This document shows positions 2,665 to 13,162 of a DNA stretch of 13,212 nt, one piece after another; within the stretch, counting starts at the first letter, position 1; each line of letters starts with the position of its first letter. The DNA is from an uncultured Cellvibrio sp. GTDB taxonomy: Bacteria > Pseudomonadota > Gammaproteobacteria > Pseudomonadales > Cellvibrionaceae. Position numbers and translations under genes: made by a program. The notes under the pieces are model-generated. The model saw only the letters and a program-made list of their open reading frames with translations. It ran no database searches and was not told the DNA's origin. Where the stretch lies: contig CAMLOU010000119.1 in the NCBI GenBank assembly GCA_946481735.1, positions 1-13,212 on the forward strand, in the 5' to 3' direction.

Positions 2665-2732
2665 TTACATCACGAAACATGGGTATAGATCCTTGAGCGT
2701 AGCAGTTGTTTAGCCTCAGGGCTGCAAAAGAC

Positions 2733-2737
2733 AGGAG
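2733..2737 (+). promoter_or_regulatory. Ribosome binding site that decides the start of the second deacetylase
   Basis: AGGAG lies 4 bases before the ATG at 2742. The frame could be extended upstream to a TTG at 2706, but that codon has no comparable Shine-Dalgarno sequence. ATG 2742 is therefore preferred. Confidence 0.65.
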
Positions 2738-2741
2738 TGCG

Positions 2742-3746
2742 ATGAACCATTTATTGTTGCAGGCGATGACGAATAAATATGTTGATCGTTGGATGACGAA
2801 GCTACTGGGCCCGTTTGTAACGATCTATACCTTGCATCGCCCTAATCCTGCCAACCATTCCTTTCATGGTATTGACGAGGGATTACTGGATCAAAGTCTG
2901 CGGTTTGCGGTTGAGCGCGGCTATCGATTCGCATCCATTGACGAGTTGGTTGAAGCGGCGGTGAGGCAGCAGGAACTGACTCATCCCACGTTATGCTTTA
3001 CCCTGGATGACGGTTATGCGGATCAGATTACTCGTCTGGTCCCCGTACTGCTCAGACACCAGGCAAAGCCAACCCTTTTTACCATTACCGATTTTGTTGA
3101 CCGGGTAGATTGGCCATGGGATGCGAAAGTATCTTATGTTATCTGGAATACGCACCTCACCCGCTTTACATTGGAAACTGCCGGAGGACAACTTGAACTG
3201 AATTGTTCCACCACGGGGCATAAAGTGAATGCGCGCAGGGCCTTATCCCGTCATGCTAAAACCCTAAACAAAAAAGCCCTGCACGAATTTCTGCAACGGC
3301 TGCAAGAGATATGTAGAGTCAATGTTCCGGAGGAAGCACCCGAAGAATACGCCCCGGCAACATGGGAAGCGTTGCGCACCTATGAAAGTCGGGGCTTGCG
3401 CGTGGGGGCTCATTCTCGTTCACACCTTGTGTTGAGTGCATTAAGTGATGAGGAAATTTTGCAGGAATTGACCTACTCCAAACAGCGGATCGACAGCGAG
3501 CTCAATAATCCATCGCGTGTGTTCTGTTATCCTTCTGGTACCGCGCGGGATTTTTCGGCTACACACCCGCGTTTGGTCGAACAGGTAGGTTTCTCATCAG
3601 CCATTACAACAATATCCAAGCCTACCAATCTGCAGGCGATACGTAATAATCTGTATCAAATTGATCGTATTGGTTTTCCTGAAACCTTTGATAAATTCGT
3701 ACGCTATTCATCCTGGATAGAAGTGCTCAGAAACAAGCTCTCCTGA
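2742..3746 (+). CDS. Polysaccharide deacetylase (NodB/CE4 type), second copy
   Basis: From the preferred ATG this is a 334-residue protein. Motif 1 is TLDDG at 87-91, where leucine replaces the usual phenylalanine but both aspartates are kept. Motif 2 is HSRSH at 224-228. FCYPSG lies at 261-266. As in the preceding gene, motifs 1 and 2 are about 136 residues apart, so the same kind of insert is present. The two proteins are clearly divergent (few identical stretches), so this is not a recent duplication. They may act on different sugars or positions. There is no signal peptide. The gene follows the first deacetylase by 77 bp and precedes the FemAB gene by 78 bp, and is probably in the same transcript. 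An upstream TTG at 2706 would add 12 residues but lacks a ribosome binding site. Confidence 0.85.
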   Translation: MNHLLLQAMTNKYVDRWMTKLLGPFVTIYTLHRPNPANHSFHGIDEGLLDQSLRFAVERGYRFASIDELVEAAVRQQELTHPTLCFTLDDGYADQITRLVPVLLRHQAKPTLFTITDFVDRVDWPWDAKVSYVIWNTHLTRFTLETAGGQLELNCSTTGHKVNARRALSRHAKTLNKKALHEFLQRLQEICRVNVPEEAPEEYAPATWEALRTYESRGLRVGAHSRSHLVLSALSDEEILQELTYSKQRIDSELNNPSRVFCYPSGTARDFSATHPRLVEQVGFSSAITTISKPTNLQAIRNNLYQIDRIGFPETFDKFVRYSSWIEVLRNKLS

Positions 3747-3824: not shown

Positions 3825-5219
3825 ATGGACATAAAAAAATTTCTGGCTTCGCCGGAATCGAGTATGGCTTCGCTTGGTATTTCAGTTGATGGTAGCAAGG
3901 GGCGCGAGCTATTGGAGCAGGTCGACCAACTGACGCAACTTAGATCCCGACTGAAAGAGGCAAAAAAAAATAAGTCCGAAGTAGCACGTCAGTTTAAAGC
4001 ACCGGAACAAGCCGCAGATGAGCGGGAGTCATTAATCCTTGCTATGCAAGTGGTCTCGGCCGAGATAAAAGGTATTGAAGAAGAGCTTAAAACAATCGAA
4101 AAACGCATGGCCGATGCGCTTAATGCAAACCAACAACAGGACACACCACTACCACCTTTTGTTATAGCCCCGGAGCAACATTACAATGGGGGCTACACGG
4201 TACGAGAGCTAAGGGCCTCGGAGCGTCACATGTGGGAAGAGTTTTTGTTGACGGCTCATATATCAGCATATCATCATCCCGTCTGGGCGGAGCTGATCAG
4301 ACGGTCGTTTGGCCATCCAACGCGAATATGGGTTGCTATAAATGATGAAGGAAAGCTTATCGGCGGTGTACCGTTAACATTTTTCTCCAGTAGGTTGTTT
4401 GGGAAGTTTGCCGTATCCATACCCTACTTTAATTACGGTGGTGTAATCTCAAACTGGTTTAATGTGGCGAGAGATATCGTTGGGCACCTGAAGACAATTT
4501 GTAAACATGAAAGTCTTTCCCATATAGAAATCCGCAGTATGCAGCCGAACCTGGGTGAGCACTTCTCCAGCAAAAAGGTATCGATGGTCTTGAGTTTGCC
4601 TGATAGTGAGGCTTCTCTTGATGAGCAACTAGGTGCAAAAGTTCGTGCACAGTATAAAAAATCAGAGGAATACCAGCCGAAAATTGTGTTTGGCAAAATG
4701 GAATTGTTGGACGACTTCTATCGCGTCTTTGCCCACAACATGCGTGATCTTGGCACGCCTGTTTATGGAAAGAAATGGTTTGCCAATATCCTTTCCGAAT
4801 CGAAAATAAATGCTGTCGTTGCCGTTGCGTATGTTAACCAAAAACCAGTGGCAACCGGCTTTCTGATTGGTCACGAAGGAATGCTCGAGATCCCTTGGGC
4901 ATCGACTATCAGGCAGGCTAATGCGATGAATGTCAATATGTGGATGTATAGACAAATTTTGGGTTACGCAGTGAATGAAGGTTACCAATTTTTTGACTTT
5001 GGCCGATCTACCCGTGATGCAGGTACCTTTAAATTCAAAAAACAATGGGGAGCCGTGCCTCATACGCACTATTGGTATTATCTCTTTCCGGAGGGCGGCG
5101 CTGTTCCGGAGTTAAATCCGGATAACCCGAAGTATAAGCTTATGATTAACCTTTGGAAAAAAATGCCAGTGTGGTTGAGCAAATTAATTGGTCCGCCAAT
5201 TGTTGCTAATCTCCCCTGA
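3825..5219 (+). CDS. FemAB-family XrtA/PEP-CTERM-associated protein with a SerRS-like N-terminal arm
   Basis: This 464-residue protein has two parts. Residues about 118-460 are a FemAB/GNAT-fold transferase of the kind linked to XrtA systems. A GNAT-like first half (HHPVWAELIRRSFGHPTRIW, 150-169) is followed by AQYKKSEEYQPKI (275-287) and the family signature FFDFGRSTRDAGTFKFKKQWG (389-409, read in two pieces: FFDFGRSTRD and AGTFKFKKQWG). FemAB enzymes transfer an amino acid from aminoacyl-tRNA to an amine, or are acyltransferases of related fold. Residues 1-102 are an additional helical hairpin: MDIKKFLASPES, then a long charged helix (29-57, with LRSRLKEAKKNKSEVARQF), a short polar turn, and a return helix (68-100). 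In order and spacing this resembles the tRNA-binding arm of seryl-tRNA synthetase. No signal peptide. TAAGGTAGGA just upstream is a good ribosome binding site. Last gene of the rightward run. The exact substrate is unknown. Confidence 0.83.
   Translation: MDIKKFLASPESSMASLGISVDGSKGRELLEQVDQLTQLRSRLKEAKKNKSEVARQFKAPEQAADERESLILAMQVVSAEIKGIEEELKTIEKRMADALNANQQQDTPLPPFVIAPEQHYNGGYTVRELRASERHMWEEFLLTAHISAYHHPVWAELIRRSFGHPTRIWVAINDEGKLIGGVPLTFFSSRLFGKFAVSIPYFNYGGVISNWFNVARDIVGHLKTICKHESLSHIEIRSMQPNLGEHFSSKKVSMVLSLPDSEASLDEQLGAKVRAQYKKSEEYQPKIVFGKMELLDDFYRVFAHNMRDLGTPVYGKKWFANILSESKINAVVAVAYVNQKPVATGFLIGHEGMLEIPWASTIRQANAMNVNMWMYRQILGYAVNEGYQFFDFGRSTRDAGTFKFKKQWGAVPHTHYWYYLFPEGGAVPELNPDNPKYKLMINLWKKMPVWLSKLIGPPIVANLP
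3962..3970 (+). repeat. A9 homopolymer inside the FemAB coding region
   Basis: Nine consecutive A bases encode Ala-Lys-Lys-Asn at residues 46-49 of the FemAB-family protein, inside the putative tRNA-binding arm. Gain of one A gives an immediate TAA, and loss of one A leads to TAG within a few codons. The run could be a site of replication or transcriptional slippage. It may equally be an ordinary lysine-rich coiled-coil stretch. Confidence 0.6.
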
Positions 5220-5224
5220 CTTTA

Positions 5225-6277
5225 TCAGCGTTTTTTGATGAGTGACTGGAATCGGTAGATCTGTTTTAACCAGTTACTTCTTATCAATAACAACGTTGCA
5301 AATTCATCATGACGGTTGACTAACTTCTTTTTGTAGTCACTTTTCTTCCCTTTGCCGGCCATAAAGTCATAGTATTGAATGGCCGGGTTATTAAATGCTG
5401 CTTCAATTTGATAGCCGAAATGTAAGGTTCCCAAGGAGATAGACCGGCAGAATTTTTCCAGATAACCACTTTGAAAATTGTACTGCCTTCCCTGATAGCG
5501 GATGTCGAACGCAACAGAAACGGGTGTTCCAGAAACGCTCATAACCGAGAAATCAATCTCATGTCCTTCCCGGGTTAAATGATCCAGAAACAGATTAATA
5601 AAGTCGAGATTTCTACCCCGGTAACAGGCTTTACCCCAACGAAGTTGGTGAAAATCATTTAATAATTGAAAAAAAGCAGCACGGTCTGGCCAGATGTTCT
5701 CAACGGTTACCGAACCTTGTCGCTTAAGGTTTTGTCGACGATTGTACAGTCGTAAGCGTGTGTTTTTCCCCAGTTCACGCAAGTAACCTGCGAAATCCTG
5801 TTGGCGCAAGTCAATCGCATAGGTTGGTTCAATTTTGCTATGAATAACATCTAATTTTCGGACCCTGGCTGCCTGTAAAAGCAAATGATAAGTAGGAGAT
5901 GAACGTAATAAATCGGCGATGTAAAACTGATCCCATGGATGTTGTAATGCAGTATCCAGATGATGGGTAATGGTATCCGATAAATGTTTATCTTCGTTCC
6001 CAAAAAAGAAGTACTCACTGCGAATGCTGGGTATTTCTCTGGTAGAAAGCCCGGCAGGATAAGCAGTGATCACGGGCAATATTTTCCCTTTATAAGAACG
6101 TGTGCAGGCAATCATTTGATCAAGCGCTGCAGTTGAAAGTGGAGTTGCACTATCTTCGGATAATCGTATGGCGGGATGTTTACCCCACGTCTCATACCAC
6201 GCCATCAACCAGGCCGATGAACGAAACAGGCCTGGTTGATGAGTACAAGGAAAAAAATCGGAGGGATCTCGCTTCAT
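5225..6277 (-). CDS. GNAT/FemAB-like acyltransferase (CelD/BcsL, Acetyltransf_6 type)
   Basis: This 350-residue protein is a distant relative of the FemAB gene that it faces tail to tail. It begins with FRSSAWLMAWYETWG (18-32), the usual opening of CelD/BcsL-like proteins. It has the basic stretch KNTRLRLYNRRQNLKRQG (171-188), typical of the middle of the family. The C-terminal GNAT core has PVSVAFDIRYQGRQYNFQSG (252-271) followed by YYDFMAGKGKKSDYKKKL (302-319), equivalent to the FDF(x)RG/K(x)RW end motif. Members are thought to transfer acyl or aminoacyl groups to surface polysaccharide; the substrate here is unknown. It has no SerRS-like arm and no signal peptide. It lies downstream of prsT on the same strand with a 102-bp gap that may contain its own promoter. 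Ribosome binding site is weak, so the start is less certain than the family. Confidence 0.75.
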   Translation of the reverse strand: MKRDPSDFFPCTHQPGLFRSSAWLMAWYETWGKHPAIRLSEDSATPLSTAALDQMIACTRSYKGKILPVITAYPAGLSTREIPSIRSEYFFFGNEDKHLSDTITHHLDTALQHPWDQFYIADLLRSSPTYHLLLQAARVRKLDVIHSKIEPTYAIDLRQQDFAGYLRELGKNTRLRLYNRRQNLKRQGSVTVENIWPDRAAFFQLLNDFHQLRWGKACYRGRNLDFINLFLDHLTREGHEIDFSVMSVSGTPVSVAFDIRYQGRQYNFQSGYLEKFCRSISLGTLHFGYQIEAAFNNPAIQYYDFMAGKGKKSDYKKKLVNRHDEFATLLLIRSNWLKQIYRFQSLIKKR

Positions 6278-6379: not shown

Positions 6380-9004
6380 TCACAGTCGCGTTTTGGCTGC
6401 TGCCAAATGCTCCCGAATCTCCTCATTATCCGGCGCCGCGCGAGCAGCTTGCTCCAGAATCCGATGGCCCTGTTGCACGTCGCCGCTTTCTACCAGTAGC
6501 CATCCATAAGTGTCGAGGATAGCGGCACTGGTCGGTGCAAGTTCATAGGCACGTTTGGCCAGTTCCAGCGCGCGTGAATCTTTTTGTTCGTAATAAAGCC
6601 AGGCGAGGTTATTGAGGGCGGCGGGCATCTGTGGGGCCAGTTCAAGGGTTTTCTCATACCATTTGACAGCCTTGGCCGAGTCCTGGGTGCGCTGTGCAGC
6701 CATGGCTTTTATCAGGGTTGGCTTGGCACTCTGTGGTAATTTTTGAATCCACTCATCGACAAAGGCATCTGCCTGCTGCGGATTATTTTTTTGATGGTGG
6801 CTAAACAGCGCTTCCGCAGCGGTGTCATTGGGCGCGGATTGCCAGGATTGACGGTAAAGTTGTAAGGCTTCGTCAGGTTTCTTTTCGGCGATGCGAATCA
6901 TCGCTTGCAAGTTAAAGCGTGCAGCCTGATTAGTCTGGGTTGATGTTAACTGATCCAATAATTTTTGAGCTTCTGCAATATTCTGTGTCACCAGTTCCGC
7001 TTGAACCATGCTGCTCAGATAACGCATATCATCAGGAAACAGTTTCAGCGCGCGCAATAGAAAGGTTTTTGCTTCATCGGGTTGTTTTTTTGCCAGCAGG
7101 GCAACACCTTGTTGATAGTATAAGTTAGCCGCCAGTTGCTTGACCGGAATGCTGTTACCGCTGCGCGCCAGTGCGGTTTCAATATGTGCGATGGCTCGTT
7201 GGATATCATTTTGCGATGCATAAATACGTGCGAGCATTACCGCAGGCTGCCATTGCTGGCTTCCTTCTTCCAGTGCGACCAGAAACTCTATCGCTTCTCG
7301 GTTGCGCTTTTGTGCTTGCATTAACGTCAACCAGTGGCCGTAAGCGGGGATCATGCCTGGATCGGCCTGCAACGCTGACTGCCAGGACTCGATGGCTTGT
7401 GCCGGTTTTTGCTGGTCGGTATAAATTTGCGCGAGGCCCGCATAGGCAAATTGTTTTTCGCGGTTATCCGGATGGGCAATCGCTTTTTCAAACGCGCGTT
7501 GTGCTTCGGCTAGCTGCTTTTCTTCATACGCGAGCCAGCCCGCAAGAAAGTCACCGCGTGGATTGTCAGGAAATTTTTGTTGGAATTGGGCGATAAGGGT
7601 TTTGACTTCCGCCTGCTGGCCGTTGGCAATCAGGGCGTGAAAGTAGCTTTGCTGGATAATAATGTCGAGTGGCATCTCGGTATAGGCTTTCTGCAATTGC
7701 GCCAATGCCTGCTCGGTATTTTCCAGTGCAAAGTAACGCTTGGCCAGTGCGATGCGCAAACGTTGTTGCGAGGTGTCCAGTGCAAGGCTTTTTTCCAGGG
7801 CCAGTGCACCTTCATTACTCTTGGCATCCCGGTCCAGCAGGGCGAGGCCGTAACTGGCAAGGAGTGCCGGATTCTGTGGCTGGTTTTCACTGGCCATCTT
7901 TAATAATATCAGTGCTTCGTCGTCCTGGTCGGCGCGCAATTTGGTTAACACGGCGGTCTGGATCAAGCTGGTAGACGCGGTTTCAGGATCAATGTATTGA
8001 TCAAATAATTCGGCGGCACTCTCGTCGCGCCCCAGTTGATGTTGCACCAGGCCCAGCAGTGTGCCGGTGGTGGCGTTCTGCGGAAATTCTTCGTGCAGTT
8101 TGGTGAGCACAGCTTCCGCATCGGTATAGTTGCCGTCCTGGTATAACGCCAGGGCTTCATTAAAACGTTGCTGTGCTGAATGACTTTCAGGATTGGCTTC
8201 CGATAATAATTTTTGATAAGCGTAAGCTTCGCTGGTGCGTCCTTCACGAATCAGTACATCGGTTAACTGGTTCAATACCATGATGCGTTGTGCCGTCATG
8301 ATGTCAGTCGTGCCCAGTGTAGTCAGGGCGCGGGTAAAATGTTTTTCAGCGCTGGGCAGATCATTTCGATAAAGCGCTATCTCGCCTTGTAAAATCAACG
8401 CATCAAAATGATCGGGATGTTGGCTAAGCAATTGCGTCAGATTTTTTGCTGCAAGATCACTTTCGCCATTAGCCAGAGCCCAGCGAGCGCGCAGTAATTC
8501 GACATCAAGACCGCTGTTGTCATAGGTTTCCAATTGCGCGAGCGTTGCGTCAAAACCGCTGCGATCACCGACCGGGATCTGTGCGCGACCGCGTAAAATC
8601 CATTGTTGGTATTGTTCGGCGGTTTCCTGTGCCGGGTGCGCGTCCAGGATTTCAAGCGTTGAGCGATATTTTTGGGTGTTCAGATAGGCTTCGGCGAGCA
8701 GGGTGCTGGTTTGCGGATGTCGGGTTATAACGCTTTCAAGCAGCTCCTGGGTCGCACCATAAGCGCCCATATGATTGTAAATGCGGGCCAGCGCCATGTA
8801 GCCGGCGGCATTTTCCGGCTGTAACTGGATGGCATTCTTGGCTTCGATCATTGCCGCGCGCAGTTGACCTTGCTGGGTATAGGCTTCAGCCGTACGCAGG
8901 TGGCGCTCAACATTGGCGGCCTGTTCGGCTTCCTTGTTACCGCAACCGGCGATCAATAAAGCCAGCCCGAAGCCTGCGATGATAGTGAGGTATTTCATGG
9001 TCAT
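6380..9004 (-). CDS. prsT: XrtA/PEP-CTERM system TPR-repeat lipoprotein PrsT
   Basis: This 874-residue protein starts with a lipoprotein signal peptide: a positive start, hydrophobic run IIAGFGLALLIAG, and lipobox LIAGC with C21 as the lipidated residue. The rest is almost entirely tetratricopeptide-type repeats, recognisable from about residue 35 (RTAEAYTQQGQLRAAMIEAK) to the end, where ALNNLAWLYYEQKDSRALEL and ILDTYGWLLVESGDVQQGHR are very typical TPR units. Length and layout fit the PrsT family (about 900 residues). It is probably anchored to the inner leaflet of the outer membrane; the residue after the cysteine is glycine, not the aspartate that marks inner-membrane retention. Role (family knowledge plus inference): a periplasmic protein-protein scaffold for polysaccharide or PEP-CTERM protein export. 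It follows prsR by 56 bp in the order prsK-prsR-prsT seen in these systems. A second ATG two codons downstream (8996-8998) is an equally possible start. Confidence 0.9.
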   Translation of the reverse strand: MTMKYLTIIAGFGLALLIAGCGNKEAEQAANVERHLRTAEAYTQQGQLRAAMIEAKNAIQLQPENAAGYMALARIYNHMGAYGATQELLESVITRHPQTSTLLAEAYLNTQKYRSTLEILDAHPAQETAEQYQQWILRGRAQIPVGDRSGFDATLAQLETYDNSGLDVELLRARWALANGESDLAAKNLTQLLSQHPDHFDALILQGEIALYRNDLPSAEKHFTRALTTLGTTDIMTAQRIMVLNQLTDVLIREGRTSEAYAYQKLLSEANPESHSAQQRFNEALALYQDGNYTDAEAVLTKLHEEFPQNATTGTLLGLVQHQLGRDESAAELFDQYIDPETASTSLIQTAVLTKLRADQDDEALILLKMASENQPQNPALLASYGLALLDRDAKSNEGALALEKSLALDTSQQRLRIALAKRYFALENTEQALAQLQKAYTEMPLDIIIQQSYFHALIANGQQAEVKTLIAQFQQKFPDNPRGDFLAGWLAYEEKQLAEAQRAFEKAIAHPDNREKQFAYAGLAQIYTDQQKPAQAIESWQSALQADPGMIPAYGHWLTLMQAQKRNREAIEFLVALEEGSQQWQPAVMLARIYASQNDIQRAIAHIETALARSGNSIPVKQLAANLYYQQGVALLAKKQPDEAKTFLLRALKLFPDDMRYLSSMVQAELVTQNIAEAQKLLDQLTSTQTNQAARFNLQAMIRIAEKKPDEALQLYRQSWQSAPNDTAAEALFSHHQKNNPQQADAFVDEWIQKLPQSAKPTLIKAMAAQRTQDSAKAVKWYEKTLELAPQMPAALNNLAWLYYEQKDSRALELAKRAYELAPTSAAILDTYGWLLVESGDVQQGHRILEQAARAAPDNEEIREHLAAAKTRL

Positions 9005-9060
9005 TCTGTTCCGTGATAGGTTCGCGATGCCTGATTGAGGCGCAAAAACACACCGTGCGG

Positions 9061-10446
9061 TTAATCGTTGTCGTGATTGTTCTGATTATGCGCTACCGGT
9101 ATGTCATATTTTTTAATCAGGTCGTAAAACGTCGGGCGTGTTATGCCGAGCAGTTTGGCTGCGGCAGAAATATTGTTGTCGGTCATCACCAGCGCGCGCA
9201 TGATGGCAGACTGTTCTGCCGCCTGGCGCACATGGCGCAGATTCAGTGACAGCTCGCCGGCATCGGCAAGTCCCATATCTTCGCGCGTGATGTACTTGCC
9301 ATCAGCCATGATGACAGCGCGCTTCACCTTGTTTTCCATCTCGCGAATATTGCCGGGCCAGTTGTAGCTTTCAATGGCGGCAATGGCGTCCGGCGTAAAG
9401 CCGCTGATATTTTGTGAATGTTCTGCGGCAAACTTCATCTTGAAATGGCGCGCGAGCAGAACCTTGTCACCGTGGCGCAGCCGCAGCGGTGGGATATCCA
9501 CCGTCATTTCGCAAATGCGGTAAAACAAATCTTCACGAAAGGTGCCTTCGCTGACCATCTTTTGCAGGTCTTTATTGGTCGCACAAATGACGCGCACATC
9601 CACCGGGATTTCGGTGCGGCCACCGACGCGTTCGATCACACGCTCTTGCAAAAAGCGCAGCAATTTGGATTGCAGGTTGAGTGGCATATCGCCGATCTCA
9701 TCCAGGAACAATGTACCTTCATTGGCAGTTTCCACCTTGCCGACGGTGGTTTTATTGGCGCCAGTAAAAGCACCTTTTTCGTAACCGAACAATTCACTCT
9801 CAATTAAATTTTCCGGCACAGCTGCACAGTTAATTGCAACGAAACGTTTATTGCGCCGGGGGCTGATCTGGTGAATCGCGCGCGCCATCACTTCCTTGCC
9901 GGTGCCGCTTTCACCCAGCAGTGTGCAGGTCACGGTAGTGGGGGCAATTTTTTCCAACTGCCGGCAAATTTTTAACATCTTCGGGTCGTTGGTGATCAAA
10001 CCCTCCAGCGGTTCCTGCTGGGTAATGTGCAACCGGCGATTGTCTTCTTCCAGTTCATAAATATGAAATGCGCGCTGCACAATCAGGTCGAGTGTGCCGG
10101 GATCAACCGGCTTTTGATAATAATCGTAAGCGCCCATGGCAATCGCGCTGATGGCATGTTCGTGACCGGTCTTGCCGGTCATGACAATGATCTTACTGGT
10201 AGGAGAAATACGCAGGATATCCTGGATGCATTTAAAGCCTTCATCCACACCGTCTTCATCCGGCGGGAGCCCCAGGTCCTGAATAATGACGGAGGCTTCA
10301 TGTAAACGCAGCGCGGCGATGGCGTCCTGGCGGTTCTCGGCAATGATGGTTTCGTATTGGTCGAAGTGCCAGCGCAATTGGCTTTGCAGGCCGCGATCGT
10401 CTTCGATAATCAGGAGCGTGGGCTTGTTACTGGACTGTCTGCTCAT
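9061..10446 (-). CDS. prsR: PEP-CTERM system response regulator PrsR (NtrC-type sigma-54 activator)
   Basis: This 461-residue protein has three domains. The receiver (about 10-125) has an acidic pocket E15/D16, phospho-acceptor D57 within VIIQDLGLPPDEDG, T90 and K112, so it looks functional. The sigma-54-interacting AAA+ domain (about 148-380) has Walker A GESGTGKE (178-185), the GAFTGA loop (225-230) that contacts sigma-54, Walker B TLFLDE (245-250) and the arginine-finger region FREDLFYR (303-310). A Fis-type helix-turn-helix closes the protein (ISAAAKLLGITRPTFYDLIK, 426-445), the form typical of PrsR. It should bind upstream of sigma-54 promoters and open them when phosphorylated by PrsK. 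Its start codon lies inside the prsK end (20-bp overlap) and has only a weak ribosome binding site, so translation is likely coupled to prsK. In this family the targets are PEP-CTERM protein genes; none is in this window. Confidence 0.93.
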   Translation of the reverse strand: MSRQSSNKPTLLIIEDDRGLQSQLRWHFDQYETIIAENRQDAIAALRLHEASVIIQDLGLPPDEDGVDEGFKCIQDILRISPTSKIIVMTGKTGHEHAISAIAMGAYDYYQKPVDPGTLDLIVQRAFHIYELEEDNRRLHITQQEPLEGLITNDPKMLKICRQLEKIAPTTVTCTLLGESGTGKEVMARAIHQISPRRNKRFVAINCAAVPENLIESELFGYEKGAFTGANKTTVGKVETANEGTLFLDEIGDMPLNLQSKLLRFLQERVIERVGGRTEIPVDVRVICATNKDLQKMVSEGTFREDLFYRICEMTVDIPPLRLRHGDKVLLARHFKMKFAAEHSQNISGFTPDAIAAIESYNWPGNIREMENKVKRAVIMADGKYITREDMGLADAGELSLNLRHVRQAAEQSAIMRALVMTDNNISAAAKLLGITRPTFYDLIKKYDIPVAHNQNNHDND

Positions 10447-12514
10447 GGAAGCTCATAAATCCTTGTTGATGTGGCTCGTTGAGGGGCAGGGTAATGGTAA
10501 TCGTTGTACCTTCGCCGACGGCGCTGATCACATTCAACGTGCCGCCCAATTCACTGATGTATTCGCGCGAGAGATACACACCGATACCCATACCCTTGCC
10601 GGATTTGGTGGTGTCGAAAGGTTTAAACAAACGGTTGTGAATAAAATCCCAGTCCATGCCGGAACCATTATCTTCGATGGTTATGGTGGCATTATTGCCG
10701 GAACAGCGCAATGTAAGGTGGACGCGCCCGTCATCGGGCGTGGCTTCCTGGGCATTTTTGATGAAGTTGGTGATGGTCATTACCAGGCGGACCTGGTCGG
10801 CGTTGATGGTTCTATCGGTATCCTGAATATCCGCCGTCAGCACCGGCGAACTGCGTTGGCATTCGGCCAGCGCCTGGTCAATCACGTCGCGCAAATGCAG
10901 GCGCTTGACCAGGTCGCTTTCATCGCGGCGCAATTTCTTTAATAAGTTATTCATCCGGTCAACAGAATTACTGATGGTCTCAATGGCATCTTCAATAAAG
11001 GCGGGATTATCTTTATGGCGTTCTGCGTTACGTACTACCAACGCCTGCTGTGCAATCAGATTGTTAAGGTCATGGATAATAAAGGCCACTAATTTGTTGT
11101 AGGTATCAAACTGACGTACCTCCACTAACTGCTCCGCTTGCTGATGGCGTTTCAGGTAGCTCGCCAACTGGCGTCCCATGGTTTTCAGCATGTCCAGATC
11201 TTCCCAGGTCAGCGACGCGTCCGCAGTGGGTTTGGTCAGCGCCATAAAACCCACCAGCTCATCGGCGACGATCAGCGGAAAGATCAACCAGAGTTCCGGA
11301 ATATTGCGGGCCCAGTGGGGCAGGAATTCATTGTTCTGGCTCAGCGCTTCGTTGTCGCCGGAGTCAGGGAAAAAGACCCATTCGGATTGCAGGAAGGTTT
11401 CACAAAAAGGACTGTCCACCGCTTCTTCCTGCAGGTCCACGAAGCCGGGAATGCCCGATTGGAAAACCGGCTCATAGTAGCCTTGCTTGCGTAGCCAGAT
11501 GGCGCCACCGGGAGCCTTGGTGATAGATGCTACGGCGTAGAATGCGCGCTGGTTAACTTCATTGTTCTCTGCGGGTTGAGCCAGGTAGTTGATCAGGCCC
11601 AGCCATTCGCTGCGGTAATCATATTTATGGCGGAACAGGTGTTTGTTGATAAGCACGGACAGTTGTGAGCGGATACTGCTGGAAAGGAACACCGTCGCAA
11701 TCGCCAGCACAGCGCCGATCAACACAAAACTGTACACCACCGTTCCCCAGTTCCCACCGTAAAGCCGCACGTAGTAACCCCCCAACGCGAGGGCGCTGAT
11801 AAGTACTCCGACTCCGACCAGAGAGGTGGTGTAAAACGCGATGGGACGGGAAAGGTTGAAGTGCGCGGGACGGTCATTCTGCTGCATCAACAGCAGGCCG
11901 CCTAAGGCCATAAACAGGCAGGTGCCGATGGAGACGGCGGCGCGGGATTGCCACAACAAGGGGTCCAGTCCCTGAAAGATCAGGCTGTGGGTATAAAGAT
12001 AGATATCATAGAGGAACAGCACGCCCAGGTTCATACACATCAATTTGATCTGGCGATCATTGGCTGCGGCATAGCGAAACAGTTGCTCTATGCTCACCAG
12101 CCCGATGACTGCAAGCGTCAGCGCAAACCAGGACGACAGGCGCAATAGTGGCTCAAAGTCAGCCAGGCTGGCCACCAGCACCACGGCGGTTAACGGCCAG
12201 CCGATGCCGAACAGGATCTTCAGACTGCGCGGCAGGCGTTGTTTGTTGGTGGCGGCCCGCAGAATCAGGGCTATGCACAATACCCACACGTTGTAGTGCA
12301 GGCATTCATAGACCAACAAAGTGAGTGCGGAATAATCCCGGTCGCCAAACGACAGCGCAATCACCAGCAGGCTCAGGGTATGGGTAGCGGCCGCCAGGGC
12401 GAAAACATAGGTGCGTTGTTGCCTGAAGAATTGATAACAGTAGGTAACCGTTAACAGGGCCGCGACGATGGCGGCACTCAGATAAGCGGTAAAGGTGACG
12501 CTGTTATATTCCAT
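10427..12514 (-). CDS. prsK: XrtA/PEP-CTERM system membrane histidine kinase PrsK
   Basis: This 695-residue protein has an N-terminal half of about eight or nine hydrophobic segments between residues 5 and 280. They are strongest at 5-29, 36-55, 61-86, 100-118, 127-147, 190-210, 225-247 and 255-280. A GAF-like cytosolic domain follows (about 300-455, including WLIFPLIVADELVGFMALTK at 409-428). The kinase core has H481 in FIIHDLNNLIAQQ as the phosphorylated histidine, the N box NFIKNAQE (583-590), G1 DNGSGM (615-620), the F box LFKPFDTTKSGKG and G2 GMGIGVYLS (641-649). It should autophosphorylate and pass phosphate to PrsR. The stimulus is unknown; the multi-pass sensor and GAF domain suggest a membrane or cytosolic signal. 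It heads the leftward operon prsK-prsR-prsT. The start codon has no strong ribosome binding site, and a small hairpin (CGGATTTTTCCG, 12521-12532) lies directly upstream. Confidence 0.92.
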   Translation of the reverse strand: MEYNSVTFTAYLSAAIVAALLTVTYCYQFFRQQRTYVFALAAATHTLSLLVIALSFGDRDYSALTLLVYECLHYNVWVLCIALILRAATNKQRLPRSLKILFGIGWPLTAVVLVASLADFEPLLRLSSWFALTLAVIGLVSIEQLFRYAAANDRQIKLMCMNLGVLFLYDIYLYTHSLIFQGLDPLLWQSRAAVSIGTCLFMALGGLLLMQQNDRPAHFNLSRPIAFYTTSLVGVGVLISALALGGYYVRLYGGNWGTVVYSFVLIGAVLAIATVFLSSSIRSQLSVLINKHLFRHKYDYRSEWLGLINYLAQPAENNEVNQRAFYAVASITKAPGGAIWLRKQGYYEPVFQSGIPGFVDLQEEAVDSPFCETFLQSEWVFFPDSGDNEALSQNNEFLPHWARNIPELWLIFPLIVADELVGFMALTKPTADASLTWEDLDMLKTMGRQLASYLKRHQQAEQLVEVRQFDTYNKLVAFIIHDLNNLIAQQALVVRNAERHKDNPAFIEDAIETISNSVDRMNNLLKKLRRDESDLVKRLHLRDVIDQALAECQRSSPVLTADIQDTDRTINADQVRLVMTITNFIKNAQEATPDDGRVHLTLRCSGNNATITIEDNGSGMDWDFIHNRLFKPFDTTKSGKGMGIGVYLSREYISELGGTLNVISAVGEGTTITITLPLNEPHQQGFMSFHEQTVQ

Positions 12515-12654: not shown

Positions 12655-12684
12655 TTCACGTTGATGCAGATTTGTGGCTATAAT
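12655..12684 (+). promoter_or_regulatory. Sigma-70 promoter of the cytochrome gene
   Basis: TTCACG (-35, 4 of 6 matches) is separated by 18 bp from a perfect TATAAT -10 at 12679-12684. The expected transcript start is near 12691, giving a leader of about 45 bases before the GTG start at 12737. The perfect -10 makes this the best promoter in the window. Confidence 0.6.
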
Positions 12685-12723
12685 GGCCGCCGACTTTGCC
12701 CAGCGGGGCGCTATATATAAAGA

Positions 12724-12729
12724 AGAGGA
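12724..12729 (+). promoter_or_regulatory. Ribosome binding site that sets the cytochrome start
   Basis: AGAGGA lies 7 bases before the GTG at 12737. The next in-frame ATG (12746) is 16 bases away, too far. A longer upstream reading from the GTG at 12674 would overlap the promoter and hide the signal peptide, so GTG 12737 is preferred. Confidence 0.6.
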
Positions 12730-12736
12730 AAAAACC

Positions 12737-13162
12737 GTGAGCCAAATGAAGAAGATATTCAGTCTGGTACTGGTCGTGGGCCTTGGTGCTGTTTCCGGTC
12801 TCGCCTACAGCCAGTCAGCGGCCCTGACTGAAGAGATGAAAGCGCGCATCGCCCCCGTTGGCAGTGTTTGTAAATCCGGTGAAAGCTGTGCCGCCGCCCC
12901 GGTAGCCGTCAGCAGTGGCCCCAAGTCCGGTGAAGAGGTGTACAAGAGCGCTTGTACGACATGTCACTCTATCGGCGTGGCTGGCGCGCCCAAAACCGGT
13001 AGTGCGGATGATTGGGCTCCGCGTATCGCCAAGGGTATCGACACGCTTTATACCCATGCTATCGATGGTTTCAACGGTATGCCCGCCATGGGCTTGTGCA
13101 CCACCTGCACCGAAGATGAGGTCAAGGCAGCGGTTGATTACCTCGTCGAGGGTGCCCAGTAA
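12737..13162 (+). CDS. Cytochrome c5-type periplasmic c-type cytochrome
   Basis: With the GTG start this is a 141-residue protein. A Sec signal peptide (MSQMKKIFSLVLVVGLGAVS then GLAYSQSA) directs it to the periplasm, with cleavage probably after AYS or SQS. The heme is attached at CTTCH (73-77). The sequence VAGAPKTGSADDWAPRIAKG and the GMPAMG segment (114-119) with a methionine axial ligand are typical of cytochrome c5. C121 and C124, in LCTTC, form the disulfide that marks this group. C45 and C51 are an extra cysteine pair in the N-terminal linker. The family shuttles electrons in the periplasm, for example to terminal oxidases. The gene is divergent from prsK, has its own promoter and is followed by a strong hairpin, so it is a single-gene unit at the border of the polysaccharide locus. 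Confidence 0.88.
   Translation: MSQMKKIFSLVLVVGLGAVSGLAYSQSAALTEEMKARIAPVGSVCKSGESCAAAPVAVSSGPKSGEEVYKSACTTCHSIGVAGAPKTGSADDWAPRIAKGIDTLYTHAIDGFNGMPAMGLCTTCTEDEVKAAVDYLVEGAQ

Follow-up and report, generated by a model that had tools for sequence, protein, structure and literature searches.

A FemAB protein of an XrtA/PEP-CTERM exopolysaccharide locus with a putative seryl-tRNA synthetase-type N-terminal arm

What does the FemAB protein of an XrtA/PEP-CTERM exopolysaccharide locus transfer, and from which donor? The papers that we read give no description of the chemical role of FemAB in such loci. We addressed the question in a 13,212-nucleotide stretch of DNA from an uncultured Cellvibrio sp. 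(contig CAMLOU010000119.1 of assembly GCA_946481735.1), called the window here. The window is an XrtA/PEP-CTERM exopolysaccharide locus, marked by PrsT, PrsR and PrsK. Its 464-residue FemAB open reading frame (ORF) lies at 3825-5219 (+), starts with ATG and has AAGGTAGG upstream; residues 137-464 pass the NCBIfam equivalog TIGR03019 (FemAB, XrtA/PEP-CTERM-associated) with 295.6 bits against a cut-off of 260.35. A first-pass annotation, made by eye, had likened the residues in front of this core to the tRNA-binding arm of seryl-tRNA synthetase (SerRS). Our analysis leads us to propose, with a probability of about 0.6, that this FemAB protein acts in the exopolysaccharide locus as an aminoacyl transferase of FemABX type and that its N-terminal SerRS-type arm holds a tRNA.

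The first 102-105 residues are as that annotation described them, and the resemblance seen by eye was borne out by profile comparison. The arm (residues 1-102; 3825-4130, +) matches Pfam Seryl_tRNA_N (PF02403) over residues 2-99 and profile positions 3-101 of 108. Scanned alone, it scores 30.3 bits (E-value 5.3e-7), above the cut-off of 28.2, and PF02403 is its top-ranked Pfam family; in the full-length protein, the match falls slightly under the cut-off (25.6 bits, 1.5e-5). Among ten relatives scanned at full length, four (L055, L062, L075 and L077, our handles for loci) exceeded the cut-off, five were below it and L018 gave no PF02403 match.

Relatives were taken as the best 80 of 584 loci obtained by scanning genome contigs with an initial alignment (A1). 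An N-terminal extension that aligns with the arm was present in 77 of these 80 loci. The exceptions were L061 and L065, which lack the arm, and L076, where no start was found before the contig end; all three were left out of the second alignment (A2). PF02403 matched 60 of the 78 resulting family members (the window plus 77 relatives; E <= 0.1), while the commonest unrelated coiled-coil families matched only 4/78. Seven whole genomes were scanned with PF02403, and in five of them the match ranked next after SerRS itself was the FemAB arm.

Searches in other directions gave the same answer. When a hidden Markov model (HMM) of the arm was run against 177,635 Protein Data Bank (PDB) sequences, SerRS occupied ranks 1-3 and nine of the top 14; with the whole-protein profile, SerRS took ranks 1-5, matched via the arm. 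Conversely, an HMM of the SerRS arm, built on six of seven SerRS loci (L087, on the other strand, was left out), was scanned over the 4341 ORFs of the 80 related loci, 79 of whose 80 FemAB ORFs are flagged in the set. All 38 of its matches were FemAB. Profile-profile alignment with hhalign paired the family arm with SerRS at 96.6% (E 4.7e-10) over 99 gapless columns, compared with 19.0% (E 0.0012) for the reversed profile and 0.0-0.2% for ten heptad shuffles. We conclude that the N-terminal arm is very probably of SerRS type.

The AlphaFold2 (AF2) model is consistent with this assignment. Two short helices (residues 3-8 and 10-16; 3831-3872, +) precede a long antiparallel hairpin, formed by an outgoing helix (residues 24-56; 3894-3992, +) and a return helix (residues 64-102; 4014-4130, +). 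This predicted arrangement of cap helices and long antiparallel hairpin is that of the SerRS N-terminal domain, and a Foldseek search with the arm returns SerRS as its top six matches, with weak E-values. The cap helices, near the start of the PF02403 match at residue 2, are the probable counterpart of the SerRS opening. The first-pass annotation had named two findings that would count against it, no match to the SerRS arm profile and a predicted structure other than an antiparallel coiled-coil hairpin; since we found both a match and a predicted hairpin, neither applies.

The hairpin tip preserves further detail. In the gapless hhalign register, where window residue n corresponds to residue n+1 of the L081 SerRS, the family tip [KR]-G-x-x-S-R-x-[IF]-[GK] lies over R-N-x-x-S-K-x-I-G of the six SerRS used. 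The window's own tip, K50-S-E-V-A-R-Q-F-K58 (3972-3998, +), is a looser fit to the SerRS tip than the family form. Column counts over the 78 arms show Lys or Arg at position 50 in 90%, paired with the Arg of SerRS R-N; Ser or Ala at position 54 in 74 (mostly Ser in the six SerRS); Lys or Arg at position 55 in 81% (SerRS Lys); Phe, Ile or Val at position 57 in 77 (SerRS Ile); and Gly in 40 and Lys in 31 at position 58 (SerRS Gly). Acidic residues are absent from positions 50, 51, 53-55, 57 and 58 in all 78 arms. Ser78 is kept in 71, and the stretch 35-62, on the outgoing side, is net positive in 76.

The arm shares with the SerRS N-terminal domain its N-terminal place, predicted cap helices and antiparallel hairpin, colinear profile and positive outgoing half, and in its family form it has a similar tip motif. 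It differs in that SerRS joins the domain to a class II synthetase core, whereas here it is joined to a double-GNAT transferase. The return half is also less acidic in the arm family (mean net charge -1, versus -3 to -7 in six SerRS), and the cap has been lost in part of the family. This short form retains the hairpin without the cap helices (window residues 1-23), as in P0019, P0040, L005, L012 and similar proteins; it is seen in Cellvibrio-type proteins, and column 24 is occupied in 50 of 78 rows.

Behind the arm, a linker (residues 103-123; 4131-4193, +) leads to the XrtA/PEP-CTERM-associated FemAB core (residues 137-464; 4233-5216, +). The mean predicted local distance difference test score is 67 for residues 101-110, the lowest block in the model, and 76 for residues 111-120. 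Foldseek with the whole model ranked Weissella viridescens FemX first (1.9e-14), followed by the streptothricin synthases Sbb17 and Sba18, Staphylococcus aureus FemA (5.1e-12) and MprF; other GNAT proteins ranked lower. By its matches to FemX and FemA, the core has the double-GNAT fold of FemABX aminoacyl-tRNA transferases. FemX and the two streptothricin synthases are the best structural matches of the model. The PDB titles of Sbb17 and Sba18 say that they are aminoacyl-tRNA-dependent, and the donor of FemX is described as Ala-tRNA. Excerpts of PMC4964394 give Phe304 and Lys305 as essential residues of FemX. Judging from the FK motif rather than a residue-by-residue alignment, their candidate counterparts here are Phe404 and Lys405 (5034-5039, +). 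Both are invariant in a 34-row alignment; in 78 rows, Lys405 is invariant and Phe404 is kept in at least 90%.

FemX is described in the excerpts of PMC4964394 as having no helical arm, whereas the protein here is predicted to have one. S. aureus FemA (1lrz) resembles our protein in combining a double GNAT with a helical hairpin, and that hairpin was proposed to bind tRNA from comparison with SerRS. As the first-pass annotation had stated, the FemA coiled coil is internal, an insert at residues 246-307 within GNAT domain 2 (PMC4964394, excerpts), whereas the arm here is N-terminal. FemA chains are absent from the 60 PDB matches listed for the arm profile, and we therefore infer that the FemA arm and the FemAB N-terminal arm have separate origins.

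These features suggest how the enzyme might work. Transfer of the amino acid is probably tRNA-dependent, with aminoacyl-tRNA as its most likely source. The basic hairpin tip would grip the tRNA at its elbow or variable arm, and a flexible linker would let the double-GNAT core reach the charged 3′ end. Because the SerRS arm, of the same type, recognises tRNA-Ser, tRNA-Ser would be the leading candidate. There is a precedent for seryl-tRNA chemistry in VlmA, a FemX-like GNAT enzyme that uses Ser-tRNA-Ser as donor (excerpts of PMC12945691). Serine is nonetheless a candidate that we place somewhat short of even odds.

How widespread is the arm? Nearly all of the best 80 of 584 loci are labelled gammaproteobacteria. 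A wider draw covered 398 genomes from the phylum and 369 from the class, of which 65 and 84, respectively, had TIGR03019 over its cut-off. This gave 152 distinct places, of which one (G001) is L001 and 13 were not fetched; 138 N-termini were read. Four of these, near contig ends, were misplaced (L121, L134, L137 and L139), and the HMM found an arm in 4 of the remaining 134. Most canonical XrtA-associated FemAB proteins read in the wider draw share the core, of 328 residues in the window protein, and lack the arm by HMM. The statement in the first-pass annotation that XrtA FemAB proteins are shorter and armless holds for most of this draw and fails for the branch that contains the window.

A tree was built from 105 cores: 78 with the arm, L061 and L065, restored as members without it, and 25 canonical sequences hand-chosen from L111-L168. 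All arm-bearing rows, together with L061 and L065, fell on a single branch with support 100/100. Two changes are enough to explain the pattern, which fits one gain and one loss. As arm-less intermediates are absent from the sample, a single gain, as read from these sequences, is likely rather than certain. We also observed that L073, labelled Pelagibacterium, is the row closest to L056 of Marinobacter algicola, and that L024, labelled Verrucomicrobiaceae, lies inside the arm branch amid gammaproteobacteria. These placements possibly reflect mislabelled bins or transfer.

The neighbours of the FemAB gene bear on the acceptor. Upstream and in the same cluster lie an ATP-grasp protein (462-1649, +; PF15632) and two polysaccharide deacetylases (1651-2664, +, PF01522 at 6.3e-24; and 2706-3746, +, PF01522 at 5.8e-16), the second directly upstream of FemAB. 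By BLAST over 58 loci of at least 18 kb, these three have homologues in 32, 33 and 38 loci, respectively; one or other deacetylase has a homologue in 40, the two counts overlapping since the deacetylases cross-match. In L062, from Marinobacter changyiensis, the XrtA deacetylase TIGR03006 is directly upstream of FemAB and TIGR03007 is also present. In the Rubrivivax gelatinosus gene table, a PEP-CTERM deacetylase adjoins a FemAB-related gene (excerpts of PMC3684757). The recurrence of deacetylases near FemAB in related loci, L062 included, and in Rubrivivax suggests an amine freed by deacetylation as acceptor. The candidate acceptor would be an amino group carried by the exopolysaccharide or by its lipid-linked precursor, perhaps exposed by the neighbouring deacetylases; an exopolysaccharide amine is a tentative choice. 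A comparable pairing is discussed for Caulobacter, where the FemX-like GNAT protein HfsK is considered as a partner of the deacetylase HfsH on a surface polysaccharide, and where the authors raise action on the HfsH-exposed amine as a possibility (excerpts of PMC5362036). These excerpts make no mention of an N-terminal arm on HfsK.

Downstream, a second PF13480 GNAT protein (5225-6277, -) is convergent to the FemAB gene; the Pfam scan gave no PF02403 match in it. A homologue with 35% identity directly follows FemAB in L062 (11289-12275). The arm-bearing FemAB and the arm-less PF13480 transferase may be a working pair. PrsT, PrsR and PrsK (6380-12514, -) exceed the cut-offs of TIGR02917, TIGR02915 and TIGR02916, and prsR and prsK have 20 bases in common (10427-10446). 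The small ORF at 12674-13162 (+) has a CxxCH motif (CTTCH) and, by eye, the look of a cytochrome c.

Several points weigh against our proposal. For the arm, the fold alone is unspecific: many unrelated hairpins fit the arm model as well as SerRS does, and designed antiparallel coiled coils take ranks 4 and 5 when the PDB is searched with the arm profile, and rank 6 when it is searched with that of the whole protein. The narrow six-sequence SerRS HMM gives the window arm by itself 7.8 bits, a score reached by 23 of 1000 shuffles that preserve its heptads; the real scores of L001 and L018 are reached by 41/1000 and 51/996. The arm could accordingly be a plain antiparallel coiled coil that serves dimerisation or docking to the glycan machinery, its likeness to SerRS a convergence of charged helices. 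We consider this unlikely. Relatives' arms resemble SerRS more strongly than the window's own: no shuffle in 1000 reaches the scores of L075, L055 or L062, and two reach that of L006. Heptad-preserving shuffling makes the hhalign score collapse, the SerRS-arm HMM matches no non-FemAB ORF among the 4341, and tip columns 54, 55, 57 and 58 prefer the in-register SerRS residues. The case for a SerRS-type arm rests on PF02403 and the family, not on the letters of the window by themselves.

A true SerRS-type arm could still bind some other tRNA, or an RNA of another kind, instead of tRNA-Ser, in which case the donor would not be serine. This is a serious minority possibility. At position 51, 40 of the 78 arms carry Gly and SerRS mostly carries Asn, a real difference; the comparable internal arm of FemA is a proposed glycyl-tRNA site (PMC4964394, excerpts); and the arm of human mitochondrial SerRS touches the elbow of a tRNA with a three-nucleotide variable loop (excerpts of PMC10412605), which indicates that such an arm can dispense with a long variable arm. 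In favour of tRNA-Ser, the SerRS arm, and no other tRNA-binding arm, is the best match among families and solved structures. Alternatively, the core might be an acyl-CoA-dependent N-acyltransferase with a non-catalytic arm, since PF13480 carries the name of an acetyltransferase domain and HfsK is discussed as a putative acyltransferase with an unknown donor (PMC5362036, excerpts). We regard this as quite improbable: FemX, Sbb17, Sba18, FemA and MprF lead the structural neighbours of the core ahead of other GNATs, and an arm of tRNA-synthetase type would be hard to reconcile with a CoA donor. Within the proposed aminoacyl transfer, the acceptor is the weakest step, because 14 of the 58 loci retain the arm and show no homologue of any of the seven neighbours compared from the window. 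Seven of the 14 are labelled Granulosicoccaceae (L036, L041, L044, L052, L053, L055 and L070); in L055, an 875-residue protein beside FemAB (12627-15251, -) had no NCBIfam match at 1e-10.

The architecture is already visible in databases, as automatic annotation flags the fusion: precomputed Pfam annotation pairs PF13480 with PF02403 in 9 of 120 listed homologues (of 7015) and in 12 of the 14 proteins related to the Marinobacter FemAB. We found no paper describing a FemAB-SerRS arm fusion in the open-licence PubMed Central literature. What appears to be new here, as predicted from sequence, is an enzyme of FemABX type whose SerRS-type arm is terminal. It would be a second case of a FemAB transferase with a SerRS-like arm, differently built. 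The arm suggests aminoacyl-tRNA as the class of donor and Ser-tRNA-Ser as the candidate to try first. Arm-bearing and arm-less relatives supply an internal control, and the chemical role of FemAB thus becomes directly testable. A more specific scenario, which we hold as rather doubtful, is that a largely gammaproteobacterial lineage gained a SerRS arm on XrtA FemAB and with it Ser-tRNA-Ser-dependent transfer of serine to exopolysaccharide amino sugars, FemA having independently acquired an internal arm. If serine is indeed placed on exopolysaccharide amino sugars, the translation pool would supply the biofilm matrix.
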